In this document: positions 175 to 9,233 of the stretch, piece after piece
Layout: each line of letters starts with the position of its first letter
Position numbering within the stretch: the first letter of the stretch is position 1
Origin: Thermoplasmata archaeon
GTDB taxonomy: Archaea; Thermoplasmatota; Thermoplasmata; Thermoplasmatales; Thermoplasmataceae
Direction: 5' to 3'
Assembly: GCA_021801305.1 (NCBI GenBank)
Contig: JAJYYD010000029.1
Coordinates: 1-9,396 of the forward strand
Length of the DNA: 9,396 nt
Program-made: the position numbers and the translations under genes
Notes under the pieces: model-generated
Databases searched by the model: none
The model's input: the letters and a program-made list of their open reading frames with translations, nothing else
What the model was told of the DNA's origin: nothing

Positions 175-480
175 ATGGATGTTAATGGTGTAGTTGTCAT
201 AATCCTGGCTTTCGTAGATGGGCTGTTTTTCGGGCTAGCGATTAAGAAAGGAGTCGTTTCATTCGTCTTGCTTTTCGTTGCTTTCTTCCTTGCCGCTTAT
301 ATGGGATTCTCATTTGTTCCAAAGATATCTTTTTCAGGAATAATCTCAAAAATAATATCTTCAATTGTCAGCCACATCTCAATAATCACAAGTGCATTGG
401 CCATAGGAACTGCGGGGTCTTTTTCGCTGCTAATTGTGTTGTTCGTAGTCGGCCTTGCGATTGGACTCTGGAAGGGATAA
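175..480 (+). CDS. small three-helix integral membrane protein, function unknown
   Basis: I do not recognise this 101-aa protein. Hydrophobic stretches at about residues 5-23, 27-48 and 79-98 look like three membrane helices. Between the second and third lies a segment (about 50-78) rich in Ile, Ser and Lys with the look of an amphipathic helix lying on the membrane. The two lysines at 24-25 form a short turn between helices 1 and 2, and the protein ends in a short W-K-G tail. There is no signal peptide, no cysteine and no catalytic motif. The start is fixed by a TATA box 27 nt upstream. It is a separate transcription unit from the ESCRT-like genes beyond it, though on the same strand, so membership in that module is possible but unproven. 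Confidence 0.75.
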   Translation: MDVNGVVVIILAFVDGLFFGLAIKKGVVSFVLLFVAFFLAAYMGFSFVPKISFSGIISKIISSIVSHISIITSALAIGTAGSFSLLIVLFVVGLAIGLWKG

Positions 481-556: not shown

Positions 557-598
557 GAAAAAGAAGAATAATAAGATTTATGAGCGATCCCCACTTAT

Positions 599-1033
599 GT
601 GGTTCAATACCACATGACTTTAATTGTGGATGGAGTGATCCATCATCTGGATTCAGATATCAGCCATAAACTGGCGTCTAAGACCTATCTGTCAATATCA
701 AAGAAGGTTATAGGCTACACCTACAATGCTGTATCAGGGTCCATAGCCAGCGGACGTGTTGCCGACATATCTCCGAGCATGGATCGAGACAGGGTAACTG
801 AAACAGCTGTTCCGAAACTTGATAATCTCATAGGAATGAAGATCGATACTATTTTCTTCCCGGGGAAAGAGGACATGGATTTTCTTTTCATATCTGCAAA
901 GAACTGGCTTGTTTTGAAAGAATATGCCCTGTTTCCTGAAGAATATAGCATGAGGATCGAGCTGAACACGCTGGTGGTCAAGCATAAGAAATACAAGTTA
1001 TACTCCAAAGGAACAGTTGTATACAAGGCATAA
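599..1033 (+). CDS. beta-rich protein of unknown function, first gene of the Vps4 operon (start uncertain, possible frameshift at 589-592)
   Basis: The uninterrupted frame starts at GTG 599 (144 aa) or ATG 614 (139 aa), but neither has a ribosome-binding site. The well-placed leaderless ATG at 580 reads M-S-D-P and then leaves frame at a run of four C. Removing one C joins it seamlessly (M-S-D-P-T-Y-V-V-Q-Y) to this frame and gives about 150 aa. The protein alternates hydrophobic and polar residues, suggesting beta structure, with a serine/alanine-rich stretch around residues 40-60 and a basic K-H-K-K-Y-K-L-Y segment near the C-terminus. It has no cysteine, no membrane helix and no motif I recognise. 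The stop lies 27 nt before the Vps4-like ATPase, so the two are probably co-transcribed. This makes it a candidate adaptor, membrane-binding partner or regulator of the ESCRT-type machinery, by context only. Confidence 0.72.
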   Translation: MVQYHMTLIVDGVIHHLDSDISHKLASKTYLSISKKVIGYTYNAVSGSIASGRVADISPSMDRDRVTETAVPKLDNLIGMKIDTIFFPGKEDMDFLFISAKNWLVLKEYALFPEEYSMRIELNTLVVKHKKYKLYSKGTVVYKA

Positions 1034-1048
1034 GAGTCAGATCCAGAA

Positions 1049-1054
1049 TGAGGT
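1049..1054 (+). promoter_or_regulatory. Shine-Dalgarno site of the Vps4-like ATPase
   Basis: TGAGGT ends 6 nt before ATG 1061 and matches the archaeal anti-SD complement (GGAGGTGAT core). A ribosome site here, with no TATA box in the 27-nt gap, indicates that the ATPase is an internal cistron translated from the transcript that starts near 580. Confidence 0.7.
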
Positions 1055-1060
1055 ATAGAA

Positions 1061-2173
1061 ATGGAAAAATCTGAAGGAAACCGTGAACTCGAAGAGGCCA
1101 CAAAAATACTGGAGGCTGCTATCAAGTACGAGGCCAGCGGCGACAGGGACAAGTCACAGATATACTATTTAAAGGCATACAACGCAATGCTGAGGGTCAT
1201 TGAGACATCGGAAGGAGAAACAAGGGAGAAGCGAATCCGGCAGAGCGAAGCGATTATGAACGCCTACAGGAATGTCAAGGAGAAGGCTGAGCCTGCAAAA
1301 GAAAACACAAGCCAGAGCGTTGGTGAAAAAATTCTGGAGGAGATAGGCCTCGAACGCCCCACTATACCAAATATCACATTTAATGATGTAGCCGGTCTCG
1401 AAGATGTAAAGAATGAGATAATGGCCAAGATCATATACCCCATGAGGAACAAGGAGCTCTCAGAGGAATATAACGTGCAGTTCGGGGGCGGAATGCTTCT
1501 TTACGGGCCACCCGGTACAGGGAAGACACACATTGTGAAAGCCATTGCGAATGAAGTCAAGGCCATGTTCATAAATGTAAATCCATCGTCTCTTTACAGT
1601 GAATGGTTCGGGAAGTTCGAGAAGAATATTACTGCTCTTTTCAAGGCAGCCTATGAACTTTCCCCATCCATCATATTCTTTGATGAAATTGATACTCTAG
1701 TGCCAAAGAGGGAGGGTACCAAGACAGATGTGGTCAGGAGAGGTGTTTCACAACTCCTTACAGAGGTTGGGGGCATAAATGCACAGAAAGGAAAGAACAT
1801 ATTTATCATTGCAGCAACAAACAATCCGTGGGAGATAGACGACGCAATATTGAGGCCCGGAAGATTCGATGTAAAGATCTACGTTCCGCCACCGGACGAA
1901 ACGGGGAGGAAGAAAATATTTCAGTTGAATCTTTCAAAGGTGAAACAGGTAGGAAAAATCGACTATGATCAACTGGCCAGGATCAGCAACGGCTACAGTG
2001 GAGCAGATATTGAATTTGTCTGCAAGAAAGCGACCCAGAATGTCTTCATGGATGCCGTAAAAAGTGGAAATAAGCGTCAGGTGGCGACAGATGACATAAT
2101 AGCGGTACTTATGCAGGTAAAGCCCTCTATTGACCCTAAAATCATCATGAGATACGAGGAATACAAATCCTGA
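1061..2173 (+). CDS. cdvC: Vps4/CdvC-like MIT-domain AAA ATPase (ESCRT disassembly)
   Basis: This 370-aa protein has the layout of Vps4/CdvC. An N-terminal three-helix MIT-like region (about 8-78) should grip the tail of ESCRT-III subunits. A linker follows, then one AAA module (about 105-340): Walker A GPPGTGKT at 149-156, pore-loop segment SEWFGK around 180-185 with the expected aromatic W182, Walker B IIFFDEID at 204-211, sensor-1 Asn in AATNNP (about 254), and arginine fingers in LRPGRFD (265 and 268). The C-terminus (KPSI through RYEEYKS, 354-370) matches the closing helix typical of the Vps4/katanin group rather than proteasomal or Cdc48 ATPases, and there is no second AAA domain. In the known system this hexamer threads and removes ESCRT-III from membranes during division or vesicle release. 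The ESCRT-III-like gene follows immediately, which supports the call. Confidence 0.92.
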   Translation: MEKSEGNRELEEATKILEAAIKYEASGDRDKSQIYYLKAYNAMLRVIETSEGETREKRIRQSEAIMNAYRNVKEKAEPAKENTSQSVGEKILEEIGLERPTIPNITFNDVAGLEDVKNEIMAKIIYPMRNKELSEEYNVQFGGGMLLYGPPGTGKTHIVKAIANEVKAMFINVNPSSLYSEWFGKFEKNITALFKAAYELSPSIIFFDEIDTLVPKREGTKTDVVRRGVSQLLTEVGGINAQKGKNIFIIAATNNPWEIDDAILRPGRFDVKIYVPPPDETGRKKIFQLNLSKVKQVGKIDYDQLARISNGYSGADIEFVCKKATQNVFMDAVKSGNKRQVATDDIIAVLMQVKPSIDPKIIMRYEEYKS

Positions 2174-2255
2174 CTGCCTGAAGATTGGCCAGGAATATGG
2201 GGTTGCAAGGCCGTCTTTAACCTTTTCGAAAATCTTAACCACGCAAAAGAAAACA

Positions 2256-2262
2256 TTTAAAA
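2256..2262 (+). promoter_or_regulatory. TATA box of the ESCRT-III-like gene
   Basis: TTTAAAA is centred about 32 nt before ATG 2291, so transcription should start within a few bases of that ATG. This argues for ATG 2291 as the start rather than the in-frame TTG at 2270, which would lie upstream of the expected start site. The gene can therefore be expressed independently of the ATPase. Confidence 0.55.
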
Positions 2263-2290
2263 GTCAGGTTTGTATGTTAATTTAGTTCTT

Positions 2291-2899
2291 ATGGTCTCAA
2301 TAAAATTTGGAAAGAGTGAAGAGGAAAAGCTTATAGAAAGAAGGTCAAGAATCAGCAAATGGAAATCTGATATCGACAGGGCTATAAGGCAGTACGAGAG
2401 GAACAGGGATTCTAACATGCAGAATGCCAGGATTGCCATCAAGGACAATAATTTACCAAAAGCCAAGTTATTCGGATCCAATATACTGGCTCTTGAGAGT
2501 GCCATCAAGGGACTAAAGGACTATAAGCTGTTCCTGGAAAACATCGACCTGAACCTCCAGTTCTCCAAAACAACCAAGGATATCTGGGCATCCCTTAAAC
2601 AGGGTTCAGAAGATCTGGTGAAAAGCCAGCTTTCTGAAAAACAGATGGCACAGATGCAGACAAGCATTGACAGGATCGTTACGGCATCGGACCAGATACA
2701 GGAAAGGCTCAGCGGTCAACTGGACCAGATCACCACTGCTGTATACCAGAGGGGAGACATGAACCCGGAAAGTGTTGACAATATACTTGACAAGCTCTCA
2801 GAGGAATCCGGGGGGCAGAAAACAGATAAAGCGAAGGAAGCAGCAAATCCGGAGGATCAGAAGATTGATGATCTCCTGAAGGGCCTTCTGAAAGAATAA
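2291..2899 (+). CDS. cdvB: ESCRT-III/Snf7 family protein (CdvB-like), short form without winged helix
   Basis: The 202-aa protein is almost wholly helical with a charge pattern typical of ESCRT-III. The N-terminal half is basic (about 8-60), with a long helical hairpin predicted at roughly 10-105; the C-terminal third is acidic and flexible (from about 155). The last residues, D-Q-K-I-D-D-L-L-K-G-L-L-K (189-201), resemble the MIM1 tail (D/E-x-x-L-x-x-R-L-x-x-L-K/R) that binds the MIT domain of Vps4; the usual central Arg is Leu here. There is no C-terminal winged-helix domain, the part of crenarchaeal CdvB that docks on CdvA. It follows the MIT-AAA ATPase by 117 nt with its own promoter. The expected role is polymerisation on membranes and constriction. 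Family assignment rests on pattern and context; another coiled-coil protein is possible but less likely. Confidence 0.8.
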   Translation: MVSIKFGKSEEEKLIERRSRISKWKSDIDRAIRQYERNRDSNMQNARIAIKDNNLPKAKLFGSNILALESAIKGLKDYKLFLENIDLNLQFSKTTKDIWASLKQGSEDLVKSQLSEKQMAQMQTSIDRIVTASDQIQERLSGQLDQITTAVYQRGDMNPESVDNILDKLSEESGGQKTDKAKEAANPEDQKIDDLLKGLLKE

Positions 2900-2927
2900 G
2901 TAAATATCTTCCCCTGAAAAATTTATA

Positions 2928-2948
2928 AGATCATGCTCCTTCTGATCT
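2928..2948. repeat. short inverted repeat between the ESCRT-III and coiled-coil genes
   Basis: AGATCA and TGATCT are perfect 6-nt arms separated by 9 nt, followed by an A/T-rich run (TTTATATATTT). This could be the 3' end signal of the ESCRT-III mRNA or a dimeric regulator site upstream of the next promoter. Six-base arms can occur by chance in A/T-rich DNA. Confidence 0.3.
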
Positions 2949-2994
2949 ATTTATATATTTAATAAGCTGGTTGGGTAAATAAACAAAATAGAAG

Positions 2995-3004
2995 TTTTTA
3001 AATA
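2995..3004 (+). promoter_or_regulatory. TATA box of the coiled-coil gene (leaderless)
   Basis: TTTTTAAATA is centred about 28 nt before ATG 3029, with no Shine-Dalgarno sequence in between. This predicts a leaderless mRNA and confirms the start codon. Confidence 0.6.
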
Positions 3005-3028
3005 AATAGACCTGCTAAGTATTACCAT

Positions 3029-3760
3029 ATGAAAACAGATGACGGGAGGAACGTTTCCAAAAATGATTATTTTCAGGAACTCAAGACTGAGATAGACAAG
3101 CTAAGGAGTGCCAACCTGTCCTACGACAACCAGGTGAGGATGCTTAAGGCGGAAAACGACACACTGAAGAAAAAAAATATGGAGAGGGTAAATGAGATAA
3201 GCATCCTTAAAGAGAAACTCGATTCATTTGAATCCTCAAGGGAAGTTGAAAGGAACGAAAGCAAAACTCTTATTGAAAAACTCAGGTCAGCGGTACAGAA
3301 AAACGGGGAACTTGAAAGACAGCTTGAATCAATGGGAGAAATGCTGCCTCAGTTTGAAAACGTGAAACAGGAAAACGCTGCCCTTCTTGAAAGAATTGAA
3401 AAACAGGATGCCGTCATGAAGCAGATGTCAGACCGGAACTCAGTGCTGGAGAGGGAGGTATCAGGGTCCATGGAAATCGAGGATGAGAACAAAATCCTGA
3501 AGAACCAGGTTAAGGACATGGAAGAAAAAATTGCATTTCTCCAGCAGGAAGAGAAAGAACTTGAACTTTGCAACCTCTCAGTTAAGAAAAAGGATTTTGA
3601 GATCGATCTCCTGAAAGGACAGGTTGAAGATGTGAAACTCGCACTTAATTTGTGCAAGGAAACACTTGATTTTTTCAAAGGAATCCCCATGGTGATAGAT
3701 CGGGCTGAAACAAAACTGGTAAACGTTTCCAAGCCCAGGAGCATAACAAGGAAGAGTTGA
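3029..3760 (+). CDS. coiled-coil protein next to the ESCRT-III/Vps4 genes
   Basis: The 243-aa protein is almost continuous coiled coil from about residue 12 to 210: leucine-rich heptads with dense Glu/Lys/Gln/Asn, no proline through most of that span and repeated K-A-E-N-D and Q-E-N-A type segments. A short C-terminal part (about 212-243) leaves the coil with F-F-K-G-I-P-M and ends in a basic S-K-P-R-S-I-T-R-K-S tail that could touch membrane lipid, DNA or an acidic partner. There is no ATPase head, so it is not an SMC or Rad50 protein. I do not recognise a named family. Placement after the ESCRT-III gene, on the same strand and with a similar promoter, suggests a structural or recruiting role in the same process, in place of the coiled-coil part of the missing CdvA. 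That is inference. Confidence 0.8.
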   Translation: MKTDDGRNVSKNDYFQELKTEIDKLRSANLSYDNQVRMLKAENDTLKKKNMERVNEISILKEKLDSFESSREVERNESKTLIEKLRSAVQKNGELERQLESMGEMLPQFENVKQENAALLERIEKQDAVMKQMSDRNSVLEREVSGSMEIEDENKILKNQVKDMEEKIAFLQQEEKELELCNLSVKKKDFEIDLLKGQVEDVKLALNLCKETLDFFKGIPMVIDRAETKLVNVSKPRSITRKS

Positions 3761-3917: not shown

Positions 3918-4472
3918 ATGAAGGGTCTGATCCGCGTGCTCGTGGCTGTATTTCTCTTTGCGGCACTTATTTCGCTGCCATTGGCCAGTGCCGACGTCAT
4001 GGTTCAATCCTCAATTGCGGCATCAACAACTGTAGATCATAAATATATTGACATATGCCAGACTACGGAGAACAACTGCAACAGACAGGAAAATTACAAG
4101 CCAAATGACAATGCGACTCTGGGATATACCGGATTATTGACTGTGTGCCCTACTTTTGATTCCCAGTACTGCAACAACAATTATTACCAGTATAATGATT
4201 TTCTTGGCATCTGCAACCCATTCAACCTGACAGGAAACTTCACAATATACTTCATATCTGATTGCAGCCTGGAAATTACCCTGACACATGAGACCGGCAA
4301 ATGCAGCCAGTCCCAGACCTATACAATAACAAACGGGCAGGAGATCTCACTGCAACTTTACCATTCTAATGAAGTTTCATACTACATTTCTGCAAGCTTT
4401 GAAGGAGGCCAGCCCCAGTGCTATAATAACTGCTGCTCAGCCGAAATCTTCCTGGGCTTTGTATCATCATGA
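3918..4472 (+). CDS. secreted cysteine-rich protein of unknown function
   Basis: The 184-aa protein begins with a classical Sec signal peptide: a short K/R head, a hydrophobic core at about 4-20, and an A-S-A cleavage site at 23-25, so the mature chain should start at D26. The mature part (159 aa) carries ten cysteines (47, 54, 77, 85, 99, 116, 129, 168, 172, 173), an even number that suggests extracellular disulfides, including a C-x3-C-C cluster near the end. It is rich in Asn, Tyr, Ser and Thr and has three N-glycosylation sequons (N65, N103, N107), which fits the cell surface of an archaeon. There is no C-terminal anchor, so it is released or held by partners. Its stop lies 2 nt from the stop of the convergent gene. 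I know no named family for it. Confidence 0.82.
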   Translation: MKGLIRVLVAVFLFAALISLPLASADVMVQSSIAASTTVDHKYIDICQTTENNCNRQENYKPNDNATLGYTGLLTVCPTFDSQYCNNNYYQYNDFLGICNPFNLTGNFTIYFISDCSLEITLTHETGKCSQSQTYTITNGQEISLQLYHSNEVSYYISASFEGGQPQCYNNCCSAEIFLGFVSS

Positions 4473-5521: not shown

Positions 5522-5570
5522 CTGCACTACTTCCGGTATTCTGGCAACGAAACTAACATCAATGTCCCGG

Positions 5571-5579
5571 TATTTAAAA
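5571..5579 (-). promoter_or_regulatory. TATA box of the four-cysteine protein gene
   Basis: On the minus strand TTTTAAATA is centred at about 5575, which predicts a start site near 5548 and a leader of about 27 nt holding the GGAAG ribosome site at 5530-5534. A second A/T-rich element lies just upstream (5585-5597). Confidence 0.5.
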
Positions 5580-5621
5580 CGTATGAATTAAAAATACACT
5601 GCCGGGAGAGAAGTTCAGGCA

Positions 5622-6515
5622 TCAACTCTCAAAAGCAGCTTCACCGATGCTGTCCAGTGTCATGCCCCATTGGGGTGATTTTCCTGACACATTGAATACC
5701 TTCTTCATGTACTCTTTGGAGTATATGGCAGGAATCAGTGCTTCAAACCTGTATATGCCGTCTCTTCGTGTGAAATAGACCCCAAAATTGGGGAATGCTA
5801 CATGCTCGCTTAAAAATATTATCTGGTTTAACAGATCATTCTGGAAAGACACTTCTGTTATTTCATCCTGAGTCTTTTGACCTGTTTCGTTCGGAGGGAT
5901 AACTTTTGCCGTGGGCTTCGTGTAAATATTAAAAGGTATTTTCTTGTTCTCGCTAATATATCTTACTTCGCCCGCATAGTCTCCACTGATATCGGGAAAA
6001 GTGCGGTCCGTCCCCCGTCCACCTGGCAGCTCAAACCTGAACGAGACACGCATTACCTTGAAAAATCTGAAGAACAGCTTTGCGTTCTCAACACTTTTCC
6101 TGTTCTCACCCAGGTAACGGACTGAGTTAATTGCAGGAAATGCGTCTGAAGAGATTAGATCTGAAAATTCTTTAAGGTATTTTCTGTGGAACCTGACATG
6201 GAAATAATGGCTTCCCTCCTTTACGTACTGGAAATCCACAACCAGTGTGGGAATAGCAATAAGATTCCTGAATAAGCTGTATTCCATGTGGTGGGTGCTG
6301 TTTGAGTAAAGAGTCAGGACATTGCCGTTCTTTCTGGCATTGTTAACCTTTAAAAACATTGCAGTATCCCTGTCCTGTTCTTCTATATCCTCAAAATAGT
6401 ACAGAAAACTTTCGCGGTTTTCCCCAATAGTAAGAACAGCTGGAATTATTATGCCCTTTTCCCTGGCAAATCTTTCGATCGGGAAATCACCTGTTGCGGT
6501 TATTATTGCTTCCAT
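5622..6515 (-). CDS. protein of unknown function; C-terminus related to the gene at the right edge
   Basis: The 297-aa protein is soluble-looking and mixed alpha/beta, with no signal peptide, membrane helix or cysteine. Visible segments are an N-terminal block (1-60), an aromatic/His-rich block Y-F-H-V-R-F-H-R-K-Y-L at about 104-114, a beta-rich block from 151 (F-F-K-V-M-R-V-S-F-R-F), and a final domain (about 220-297) containing K-K-V-F-N-V and Q-W-G. The last block matches the end of the truncated gene at 9263-9396 (R-R-V-F-N-V, then D-W-G), so at least two family members occur here. ATG 6515 gives a natural N-terminus (M-E-A-I-I-T) but no ribosome site; a leaderless TTG start at 6551 (309 aa) fits the TATA position better. 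I found no helix-turn-helix or enzyme motif that would decide its function. Confidence 0.75.
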   Translation of the reverse strand: MEAIITATGDFPIERFAREKGIIIPAVLTIGENRESFLYYFEDIEEQDRDTAMFLKVNNARKNGNVLTLYSNSTHHMEYSLFRNLIAIPTLVVDFQYVKEGSHYFHVRFHRKYLKEFSDLISSDAFPAINSVRYLGENRKSVENAKLFFRFFKVMRVSFRFELPGGRGTDRTFPDISGDYAGEVRYISENKKIPFNIYTKPTAKVIPPNETGQKTQDEITEVSFQNDLLNQIIFLSEHVAFPNFGVYFTRRDGIYRFEALIPAIYSKEYMKKVFNVSGKSPQWGMTLDSIGEAAFES

Positions 6516-6568
6516 GTCAAGTCTGGAATTATAATTACTGTCAAGAATCAATATCAGGTAATACAGAG

Positions 6569-6582
6569 GGTTAATAAAAATT
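6569..6582 (-). promoter_or_regulatory. candidate TATA box of the 297/309-aa protein
   Basis: Minus-strand TAATTTTTATTAAC is centred about 25-27 nt before the in-frame TTG at 6551 and about 60 nt before ATG 6515. If used, it yields either a leaderless mRNA starting with UUG or a 33-nt leader without a Shine-Dalgarno sequence. Confidence 0.4.
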
Positions 6583-6612
6583 AACTAGCTTGTTTGCATG
6601 AAAATTCATTCT

Positions 6613-7134
6613 TCAGTTGGCCTTCTCCTGCCCCTGTCTTCTTATAACCATTGGTTCCGGACTCCAGGAAATTGCCATTATTCCGCCAAGGAAAACAAGA
6701 ACGAAGCCAAAGAAAAGACCTCCTGAGGTGCCTGCCCAGCTGAGTATGGAACAGACAAAAATAATGATCCCCCAGATCACATGTCTTTTCCTGTTGAAAT
6801 AAAGCAGGGAGCTGGAAACAAGGATCAGCATCCCTGAAACAGTTCCGGTTATCTCCAGCAGCATATCAAATGAGGTGTGTGCTGTATGAAACAGAACTAA
6901 TAAACCAAATATTCCGACATACAAAATTATAATGCCACCTATTGCAGATACAATTGCAGCATCATATGGCCAGCCTTTACGGGATACCATGATGCTGTAT
7001 CGCCCATTGCTATTTAACGTATATGAGGGGGCAATCCCGATCTCAAGAGAAAGGAAAGAAGGCCATACCTTACTGTTTCCTGCAACGTATTGATCGACCC
7101 ACGTGTAAATAAAAGTGAAAGTTCCGGATTGCAT
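6613..7134 (-). CDS. four-helix membrane protein with a polar N-terminal region
   Basis: The 173-aa protein has hydrophobic helices at about 59-82, 89-112, 117-135 and 138-157, and a short basic tail (V-I-R-R-Q-G-Q-E-K). Gly- and Ala-rich helices with small loops recall the compact four-helix membrane domains common in Thermoplasmata, but I cannot name a family. The first 55 residues are polar, aromatic and beta-like (T-F-T-F-I-Y-T-W, then Y-T-L-N-S-N-G-R-Y-S-I) and look like an exported loop. Yet there is no signal peptide or membrane helix before them, so the original N-terminus may be missing. In-frame stops close the frame about 30 nt upstream, and no good TATA box or ribosome site precedes ATG 7134. 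It is either a complete protein inserted by its first helix, or a 5'-truncated one. Confidence 0.72.
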   Translation of the reverse strand: MQSGTFTFIYTWVDQYVAGNSKVWPSFLSLEIGIAPSYTLNSNGRYSIMVSRKGWPYDAAIVSAIGGIIILYVGIFGLLVLFHTAHTSFDMLLEITGTVSGMLILVSSSLLYFNRKRHVIWGIIIFVCSILSWAGTSGGLFFGFVLVFLGGIMAISWSPEPMVIRRQGQEKAN

Positions 7135-7416
7135 TATGTTTATTGCACTTATGCATCCGCGTAATCAGTTGGATTTCTTCAATGAAAAAGTACTATGGAG
7201 CGGACGAAAACAGTATTATTGTGATCCAGCCAGCAAGCTGTGAATTGGCCAGATCCCTGTGTAAAATGGAAAAGCATGTTACACGAAGCCCGTATTTCAG
7301 AATGAAAATTGAAAGAAATGTGACGCGGGTTCAATGTAAATCTTCTCTCCCCCGGAAGCCGGGATGTTTGCGGACAACCGGCAACCGGGTTCAGAGCAAG
7401 ATTGAGGCGTCTATGT
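7135..7416. other. 282-nt stretch without a convincing gene
   Basis: This gap separates the four-helix membrane protein from the archaellin. Overlapping frames are open on both strands (forward 7143-7430, reverse 7179-7436), but neither has a start signal or sensible composition. A 30-codon forward ORF (7151-7243, beginning M-H-P-R-N-Q) lies behind a TATA-like TAAATAAAAG at 7106-7115. Around 7350-7392 the DNA is more G+C-rich with CCGG-containing short repeats and two copies of CGGGTTCA (7326 and 7386). I tested the GGTTCA motifs as tRNA T-arms and found no matching stems. It may contain an undetected RNA, gene debris or the archaellin 3' UTR. Confidence 0.4.
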
Positions 7417-8142
7417 TTATTGCAGCGTGACTTCATTGGTTACAAAGGCATTTGGGGCAGTAAACTGAATTATTGCCTGGGCACCGACTTCCGGTGTTAC
7501 CTGCCCTGAAACCTGCATGTTCTGTGTTATTTCAGCACCGAACGTGTTTGACACATTAAGTATAATTGCAGCTGTGTCTCCCGGTGATATTACCGGGTAC
7601 TGGCTGTCAACCGAGTTTGTAGGGTCCTGCACCACGATCACACCGAAGTCTGTAGCGTCATGGTGTGATGCGCTCAGGTAGTTCCACTGTTTCTCGCTGA
7701 AGAGATTCTGTGTCCCGTTTGTTGCTGTATTGTTGTATATGGTATCATTGTAGACCAGGATGGCAGTCACCCCGTTCACTGTAAGTGTTACACTGGCATT
7801 CCCAAGGTTTATGGCAGATCCGCCAGCATTATTGGTGACGAATATCGCCATGAGCGAAACGCCTCCCGTTTCAGCCGGATGAGAAGGATCATACCCCATG
7901 ATCTGGGTTATGGTTATCCCGCTGGAAACCTGGTTTATGGTGGTTGTTCCAGTGGATGTGGCTTTCTGCTGCAGTATGCCCGCAGTATGAATGAGGACAG
8001 ATGCCGCAACAGCTGCCACAAGAACCATGGCTATAAAGACTATAAGTACGCCTATTCCCGTCTCCGCCTTGTCATCAGGGTCCCTGCTGAATTGCCTCGA
8101 AATGGCTTTTCTAACATGCCTGAAATATGTATTAACTTTCAT
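7417..8142 (-). CDS. flaB: archaellin (archaeal flagellin) precursor, FlaB/ArlB family
   Basis: The 241-aa precursor has a type III (prepilin-like) leader: 26 mostly basic and polar residues ending in D-D-K-A, cleaved before E27 by the prearchaellin peptidase FlaK/PibD. Next comes the highly conserved hydrophobic assembly helix (about 29-52, with G-I-G-V-L-I-V-F-I-A-M-V-L-V-A-A-V-A-A) and the typical H-T-A-G-I-L-Q-Q-K-A-T-S-T-G continuation. The outer domain is beta-rich with five N-glycosylation sequons (N115, N132, N137, N142, N196), and the end carries the archaellin signature V-T-P-E-V-G-A-Q-A. The protein is the filament subunit of the swimming archaellum. The start is supported by GAGG 7 nt upstream and a TATA box. 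Its 26-residue leader is longer than the common 6-12. None of the archaellum motor or assembly genes (FlaC-FlaJ) is adjacent. Confidence 0.95.
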   Translation of the reverse strand: MKVNTYFRHVRKAISRQFSRDPDDKAETGIGVLIVFIAMVLVAAVAASVLIHTAGILQQKATSTGTTTINQVSSGITITQIMGYDPSHPAETGGVSLMAIFVTNNAGGSAINLGNASVTLTVNGVTAILVYNDTIYNNTATNGTQNLFSEKQWNYLSASHHDATDFGVIVVQDPTNSVDSQYPVISPGDTAAIILNVSNTFGAEITQNMQVSGQVTPEVGAQAIIQFTAPNAFVTNEVTLQ

Positions 8143-8360: not shown

Positions 8361-9233
8361 ATGCTAAGCACAGATGATAAGAGGTTTATAATTCAGAGTG
8401 TGGAGAACGGATACAAGGTCAGCGATCTTGCAAGGATGTTCAACGTGACGCCCAGGAGGGTGCAGCAGATATTGAAAGAGGATATAGATGAAGAACACAC
8501 AAAGAAGCGTTATTCATCATTAACCGAGCAGGATGTAAGTGAGATAGAGAATCTCTGGAACAACTATAAGGTCGGGTCCAGGACAATTTTCTACCTGCTG
8601 AAGAGCCGCGGCAGATCAATATCCTACTACCAGATCTACAACTACATGAGGGGAAAGAAGATGATAAGAACCAAGTATTCCAAGGAGGGTGAGATATCCA
8701 AGTCCGAAATTGATCCTCCATTGACCACAATATTCATGGACTATCACCAGACTGGAATGGACTATCCATACGCTGTTGTATGCGTAGATATGTCAACCAA
8801 GAAAATACTTTCAATGGTTGAAACCAGGAAAATAACCAAGGAGGTAATGGAGAAGAATATCGATGCACTTTCGGAATTCAGGAAAAGCAGCAACCTGGAC
8901 ATACAGAAGGTGTACCTGAGAAGTGGCATACTAAGCATACTTTATGGTGCAACCGACGTCAAATTCTACTTTTCCAAAATGGGAGTGGAGAACGTTGAAA
9001 GCGACAAACATGGAAACAGGGTGCATCTTGCACTATCGAGACTGTGGCAGAACTATGACCGGTTCAGGTGGACATTCAACTCTCCGGAGAATTTCATCTA
9101 CTGGTACAATAACAGGCCAATAATAAGCAAGTCACAGAACAAGGTCACCACTCCCAATGAAATAATGGAACAGTATCTTGAAGAGCAGAACCTGTTCTCT
9201 TCACAGGGAAAGAATCTTCCTAAAATTTCTTAA
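8361..9233 (+). CDS. IS481-like integrase-core protein with degenerate catalytic triad (inactive or domesticated transposase)
   Basis: This 290-aa protein has the transposase layout: an N-terminal helix-turn-helix (about 5-40, with Y-K-V-S-D-L-A-R-M-F-N-V-T and P-R-R-V-Q-Q-I-L), a second HTH-like region (51-100), and an rve/RNase H-like core from about 120. The first catalytic Asp is present (I-F-M-D-Y-H-Q, D127), as is the C-terminal W-Y-N-N-R-P with T-P-N-E-I. The second acid, normally in a D-x-G-S/T-x-F motif, is replaced in L-R-S-G-I-L-S (186-192). The Glu normally in N-G-K-x-E-R-F appears as His in G-N-R-V-H-L-A (218-224). With two of three acids gone it should not cut DNA, yet the frame is full-length with no internal stops. 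I see no terminal inverted repeats or target duplication. It may be a domesticated DNA-binding protein or a recently dead element copy. Confidence 0.85.
   Translation: MLSTDDKRFIIQSVENGYKVSDLARMFNVTPRRVQQILKEDIDEEHTKKRYSSLTEQDVSEIENLWNNYKVGSRTIFYLLKSRGRSISYYQIYNYMRGKKMIRTKYSKEGEISKSEIDPPLTTIFMDYHQTGMDYPYAVVCVDMSTKKILSMVETRKITKEVMEKNIDALSEFRKSSNLDIQKVYLRSGILSILYGATDVKFYFSKMGVENVESDKHGNRVHLALSRLWQNYDRFRWTFNSPENFIYWYNNRPIISKSQNKVTTPNEIMEQYLEEQNLFSSQGKNLPKIS

Follow-up and report, generated by a model that had tools for sequence, protein, structure and literature searches.

Contig JAJYYD010000029.1 of a Thermoplasmata archaeon (assembly GCA_021801305.1, a 1.09-Mb genome of the order Thermoplasmatales, 64% complete) was analysed over a stretch of 9,396 nucleotides, hereafter the window, which carries genes of an endosomal sorting complex required for transport (ESCRT). 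These genes code for a Vps4/CdvC-type AAA ATPase, an ESCRT-III protein and a small protein with a mostly beta model, named here the barrel protein, and are preceded by a gene for TM101, a hydrophobic protein. The chances are about even, in our estimate, that the locus represents the minimal ESCRT already published for Thermoplasmata together with TM101, which would take over from CdvA the anchoring of ESCRT-III polymers to the membrane. Taken as the minimal ESCRT set only, it has very likely been described already: Makarova et al. reported in 2024 that this set consists in Thermoplasmata of Vps4, ESCRT-III and the beta-barrel protein arCOG07400 (PMC10936438). How ESCRT-III is placed without CdvA matters for Thermoplasmatales and for other archaea having ESCRT but no CdvA.

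A preliminary description of the window, made from its sequence, had reported an ESCRT-like module of four consecutive plus-strand genes at 580..3760, and had proposed the barrel protein and a coiled-coil protein encoded further downstream as candidates for tying ESCRT-III to the membrane without CdvA. The four genes are present and the question is a good one. However, the module is mostly known, and the new element and best candidate anchor, TM101, is absent from that description, its gene (175-480) falling just outside the reported interval.

TM101 and its linkage to ESCRT genes

Genes of the locus were followed through 117 genomes of the order, TM101 by means of a family profile (A2) built from eight sequences. 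Genera, genomes and fetched loci are designated by g, G and L numbers; the window's genus is g1, represented by its own genome and G001. Retrieval of the loci around all ESCRT-III matches and around the best barrel match per genome gave 52 ESCRT-III/barrel loci, which come from 41 genomes in 11 genera. Of these 41 ESCRT-bearing genomes, 24, from eight genera, have TM101 no more than 7 kb from an ESCRT gene. Random placement would give 1.06 of 41, as calculated from rounded genome sizes with two 19-kb targets per genome and without regard to relatedness. The distance to ESCRT-III or barrel is below 5 kb in 22 of the linked genomes and 6.5 kb in G016, and G014 is linked via Vps4-like ATPases only. 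Apart from the three core families, none is as common near ESCRT-III or barrel genes as TM101, present within 5 kb in 22 genomes of seven genera; the next commonest neighbour families reach four genera and 15 genomes.

The arrangement itself varies. TM101 precedes the barrel gene on the same strand in g1, is divergent from it in g18, and is convergent with ESCRT-III in g7 and in g5, whose members other than T. volcanium we presume to be Thermoplasma. It adjoins the barrel gene in g1 and g18 (with two open reading frames between them in G077), and a Vps4-type ATPase gene in g16 (G032) and g14 (G014). In four of the five g5 genomes, a four-gene block parts barrel-Vps4 from TM101-ESCRT-III, each pair remaining intact. 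By keeping company with ESCRT genes through such rearrangements, TM101 becomes a specific target for experiments.

TM101 also accompanies a second ESCRT type (L124-L134 and L141; g12, g3, g14 and g16), in which helical-looking proteins of about 200 and 220 residues are encoded among AAA, Snf7 and AAA genes. The type is complete with TM101 in g12 and g3, where nine g12 genomes and one g3 genome show the same-strand run TM101-x-AAA-x-Snf7-AAA, headed by TM101, with the last AAA gene seen in eight of the ten. With regard to the two helical genes, alignment A6 gave three matches at E 0.09-0.45 and A7 none. Among the large genes beside ESCRT in L134 (G014), a Double-GTPase domain was recognised (PF19993, 3.2e-11, 5566-7287) along with a sub-threshold GAP1-N2 match, which places ESCRT next to a GTPase module in that genome.

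On a TM101 tree of 63 rows (the copies in the fetched loci) and 101 columns, in which many forks are weak, the label "linked to ESCRT" changes six times, at least three of these changes being forced by well-supported branches, compared with 19.5 changes in shuffles. Linked copies stand apart on the tree as g12/g3/g14, g1, g5/g7, g18 and two g16 copies. We interpret TM101 as a general membrane protein that ESCRT systems adopted, perhaps repeatedly.

According to the closest contender, the locus comprises no more than the published three-gene ESCRT (PMC10936438): ESCRT-III would attach to the membrane unaided, by its N-terminus, and TM101 would be an ancestral neighbour whose membrane function has nothing to do with ESCRT. 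Several observations weigh on this side and against anchoring by TM101: many genomes carry TM101 without an ESCRT-III match, the N-terminus of ESCRT-III is short, hydrophobic and basic in close relatives (e.g. MVFFKFGKS), TM101 is unlinked in 17 of the 41 ESCRT-bearing genomes, and its copies in ESCRT-less genomes lie in other gene contexts. The last two points indicate that the family is not ESCRT-only. On the other hand, TM101 stays near ESCRT genes across changes of partner and strand in eight genera, and heads the second ESCRT run. We regard the contender as possible, if doubtful, and an anchor function of TM101 in CdvA-less ESCRT as likely. Rather unlikely is a more far-reaching proposal, in which TM101 would be the ESCRT-III nucleation receptor replacing CdvA and serving two ESCRT types, the barrel protein would be a Vps4 substrate domain encoded in trans, and the two pairs would form a machine able to divide FtsZ-less cells.

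With regard to the protein, hydropathy reveals three hydrophobic stretches; approximately residues 52-75 form an amphipathic segment, whose hydrophobic moment peaks at 0.40-0.46 in the window and T. volcanium proteins. The AF2 model, of low confidence (pLDDT 71, pTM 0.46), has helices at 3-43, 53-75 and 80-100. Residues invariant over eight rows include G16, L17, G20, L21, A22, K24, K25 and G26, and the most conserved part, G-L-x-x-G-L-A-x-K-K-G, lies between the first two hydrophobic stretches. Both this loop and a WKG tail contain lysines, so that the positive-inside rule would place the two segments on the cytoplasmic side. No Pfam family matched the window protein at E <= 1, and an assignment as colicin V production protein (PF02674) was rejected, only two of eight members matching, with a best E of 0.11. 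The family occurs in 76 of the 117 genomes of the order and in 69 of 400 genomes sampled from the class, one of these outside the order; homologues named Nitrososphaeria or Conexivisphaera are present in the protein database. TM101 was not found in the literature searches made, and the main-text passages of the survey by Makarova et al., its supplement apart, name no small hydrophobic protein for the clade; likewise, no mention of the T. volcanium TM101, TVG0374366, was found in the literature searched. Two side observations concern individual copies: TM101 of G007 seems frameshifted near its end (assembly error or decay), and an ESCRT-unlinked copy lies 4-7 kb from ftsZ in g6, g11 and g16 (L137, L138, L156, L157 and L158), in a conserved block including urocanase and nucleotidyl transferase.

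The core proteins and a possible mechanism

The ATPase matches the AAA domain (PF00004) at 1.9e-40 in the Pfam scan. The CdvC model NF041006 aligns over residues 11-368 (9.9e-67) but scores 225 bits where the cut-off is 650, and a CDC48 model matches about equally (1.2e-66), across the ATPase part only. When the family profile was compared with the PDB, the top scores fell to Cdc48/p97 chains, each matching twice, and the solved CdvC 4lcb is the listed chain that aligned full-length (profile positions 14-371, E 8.9e-76), which argues that the N-terminal MIT region is included. The MIT-AAA assignment of the preliminary description holds on this basis, whereas the Pfam MIT model itself found no match in the window protein. 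In G007, the Vps4 gene (L029:5485-6510) is split over two reading frames, by assembly error or decay.

The ESCRT-III protein matches Snf7 (PF03357) above the cut-off at 1.2e-8 over residues 18-184 of 202, leaving no room for a winged helix, as had been noticed at first. Snf7 is matched at E <= 0.01 by all 11 members of the ESCRT-III alignment A3, whose PDB sequence search retrieves CHMP3, Vps24 and CdvB; ESCRT-III profile matches occur in 35 of the 117 genomes. A C-terminal pattern, D/E-x(2,3)-L/I/V/M-xx-L/I-L/I/K/R-xx-L/I/M, is present in the 14 best-scoring rows and in 22 of 52 rows overall. It was written after viewing the sequences; when the tails of the 14 best-scoring among the 52 rows were shuffled, 0.1-1.3% still matched it. 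The MIM1 consensus is (D/E)xxLxxRLxxL(K/R); the window tail has Leu at the position of its Arg, and second-type tails of g12, e.g. EKRLRERLKDI, come nearer to it. We consider this MIM1-like helix a likely contact for Vps4. In a 2022 domain survey, as far as its text was accessible, no interaction domain was reported in euryarchaeal Cdv proteins (PMC8970359), and the words MIM1 and MIM2 do not occur in the main text of the 2024 survey (PMC10936438).

The absence of CdvA was confirmed: its model, PF18822, has no match in the window's own genome at its 64% completeness, and none over cut-off in the 117 genomes of the order, two sub-threshold matches being seen in g11. Compared with crenarchaeal Cdv, the locus shares the Vps4/CdvC-type ATPase, aligned full-length with 4lcb, and a Snf7-type ESCRT-III that matches CdvB (9s9j), but it has the barrel protein and TM101 instead of CdvA and a winged helix, in a genome that holds an FtsZ-family gene and SepF. 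As in eukaryotic ESCRT-III/Vps4, of which the CHMP3/Vps24 profile match is reminiscent, the tail of ESCRT-III is acidic and leucine-containing and Vps4 carries an N-terminal MIT-like region; unlike there, the MIM1 Arg is replaced, and no ESCRT-0/I/II or ubiquitin genes were recognised among the window genes (open reading frame list and Pfam scan).

If TM101 is the anchor, the following sequence of events can be proposed. TM101 would sit in the membrane, with the invariant GLAIKKG loop and the WKG tail predicted to be cytoplasmic. ESCRT-III would assemble at TM101, aided by its own short hydrophobic and basic N-terminus, and the MIT region of Vps4 would take the MIM1-like helix and extract subunits, leading to membrane remodelling, by analogy with CdvB/CdvC and the eukaryotic ESCRT. 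For the barrel protein, partnership with Vps4 is likely; it may serve the ATPase as a separately encoded adaptor or regulator.

The barrel and coiled-coil proteins as proposed alternative recruiters

The barrel family is matched in 24 of the 117 genomes, and all 24 have a copy whose next gene downstream is Vps4, on the same strand and at a spacing between -38 and +77 bp (the Vps4 frame concerned being the split one in G007). This gene order designates Vps4 as the partner of the barrel protein. The pair is maintained where ESCRT-III is kilobases away (four of the five g5 genomes and G092) and where no ESCRT-III was found (G009, G025 and G096). Additional copies exist in G077, G091, G096, G009 and G025. 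Three paralogues fetched with their flanks from FtsZ-less g18 and g9 have no Vps4 alongside (L184:16453-16821, L200:7265-7657 and L201:7611-8003).

The same family stands upstream of Vps4 in the T. volcanium locus (G023) and in G108, presumably T. acidophilum. With its mostly-beta model and this place of its gene, the protein very likely corresponds to arCOG07400, the beta-barrel in the set of Makarova et al. (2024), in which case the locus and the published set would share the three kinds of protein, besides lacking CdvA. Literature searches for arCOG07400, for Cuniculiplasma with ESCRT and for Thermoplasma with ESCRT-III led to that survey only. The window protein has no Pfam or NCBIfam match (scattered weak ones occur among its relatives), nor did its sequence find a match in the PDB at E <= 1. 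Its structure model is mostly beta; Foldseek retrieved nothing at E <= 0.001, and the statement on its fold hence relies on moderate VIA-align scores to PHS018 (2glw), PG0164 (2d9r) and riboflavin kinase, barrels that we take to be of the RIFT/cradle-loop fold. PRC-barrel chains, the type of the CdvA N-terminus, are not in the VIA-align list, which excludes nothing.

The preliminary description saw in this protein a possible recruiter of ESCRT-III. As a membrane or scaffold recruiter, it would be a functional substitute for CdvA, akin to the beta-rich N-terminal domain of the latter, a PRC barrel (PMC10936438); its conservation within the set, its mostly-beta model and its retention in all 13 FtsZ-less g9 and g18 genomes are consistent with such a role. 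However, neither sequence nor model displays a membrane segment or coiled coil, gene order pairs it with Vps4 throughout, and the three genomes in which no ESCRT-III was found keep both barrel and Vps4. We therefore judge a recruiting role of the barrel protein improbable.

The coiled-coil protein is a very improbable recruiter: both g1 genomes have its gene behind ESCRT-III on the same strand, but 59 of the 61 genomes searched for it (against 117 for the other genes) lack a match, other genera carry the ESCRT set with no detectable copy, and a whole-database search at E <= 1e-5 returned five proteins, 74-100% identical. Its profile matches are weak or of coiled-coil type only, and we rejected it as a conserved member of the module. 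In the neighbourhood comparison, the conserved synteny expected for the four genes is seen for barrel-Vps4, while the coiled-coil gene, with no relative outside the genus in the 61 genomes, falls under the condition that the preliminary description itself had named as refuting.

Division genes, cellular role and gene layout

FtsZ/tubulin-family genes occur in 101 of the 117 genomes of the order, and the window's genome has one match in addition to SepF. They were not found in g18 (3/3), g9 (10/10), g19 (2/2) and one half-complete genome, nor was SepF in these three genera. In all three g18 genomes, a single locus combines TM101, barrel, Vps4 and ESCRT-III; barrel and Vps4 are retained in all 13 g18 and g9 genomes. 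A role in division is likely in the FtsZ-less relatives that have the set (g18, and g9 in part), and g18 provides natural test cases for division by the set alone. Since g19 has no barrel or ESCRT-III match, ESCRT cannot be the sole answer for FtsZ-less relatives. G019 of this genus, 99% complete, has two TM101 copies, and no match to FtsZ, SepF, ESCRT-III or barrel. In the window's organism, the presence of FtsZ and SepF makes a role as sole divisome unlikely; an accessory or late membrane-severing step beside FtsZ/SepF, or vesicle release, is more likely.

The five genes of the locus and other genes of the window are listed below.

Table 1. Genes of the ESCRT locus and neighbouring genes in the window
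Feature	Position	Strand	Remarks
TM101, 101-aa hydrophobic protein, three predicted membrane helices and an amphipathic stretch	175..480	+	Candidate membrane anchor of the ESCRT machine
Barrel protein, 139 aa	614..1033	+	Fits the description of arCOG07400
Vps4/CdvC-type AAA ATPase, 370 aa, N-terminal MIT-like region	1061..2173	+	PF00004, NF041006, 4lcb
ESCRT-III (Snf7 domain), 202 aa, no winged helix, C-terminal MIM1-like helix DQKIDDLLKGLLKE	2291..2899	+	PF03357
Coiled-coil protein, 243 aa, genus-restricted as far as searched	3029..3760	+	Adjoins the module; rejected as a conserved member
184-aa protein, many cysteines, signal-peptide-like start	3918-4472	+	Likely secreted; no family over cut-off
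Ta1207-family protein	5622-6551	-	PF19020, 3.7e-34
Archaellin	7417-8142	-	Arch_flagellin, 1.7e-37
Transposase-like protein, HTH N-terminus	8361-9233	+	Pfam matches weak only

The window barrel protein and OXIME_000980, a protein from Oxyplasma meridianum, share 86% identity. This cultured acidophile was described in 2024, in a paper whose text, by word search, lacks the words division, ESCRT, Cdv and FtsZ (PMC11349054).

Successive genes of the locus are separated by 133, 27, 117 and 129 bases. Stretches rich in A+T, which could be promoters, precede the barrel, ESCRT-III and coiled-coil genes (the 129-bp gap being one of them), so that only barrel-Vps4 looks tightly co-transcribed. The barrel protein, initially described as an uncharacterised partner of 144-150 residues, is encoded by a real gene, is very likely of an already published kind, and is shorter: M[TS]L aligns at ATG 614 in nine of ten rows and MTV in the other, making this the most likely start, rather than 580 or 599. 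For ESCRT-III, the most likely start is 2291, which gives 202 residues, rather than 2270.

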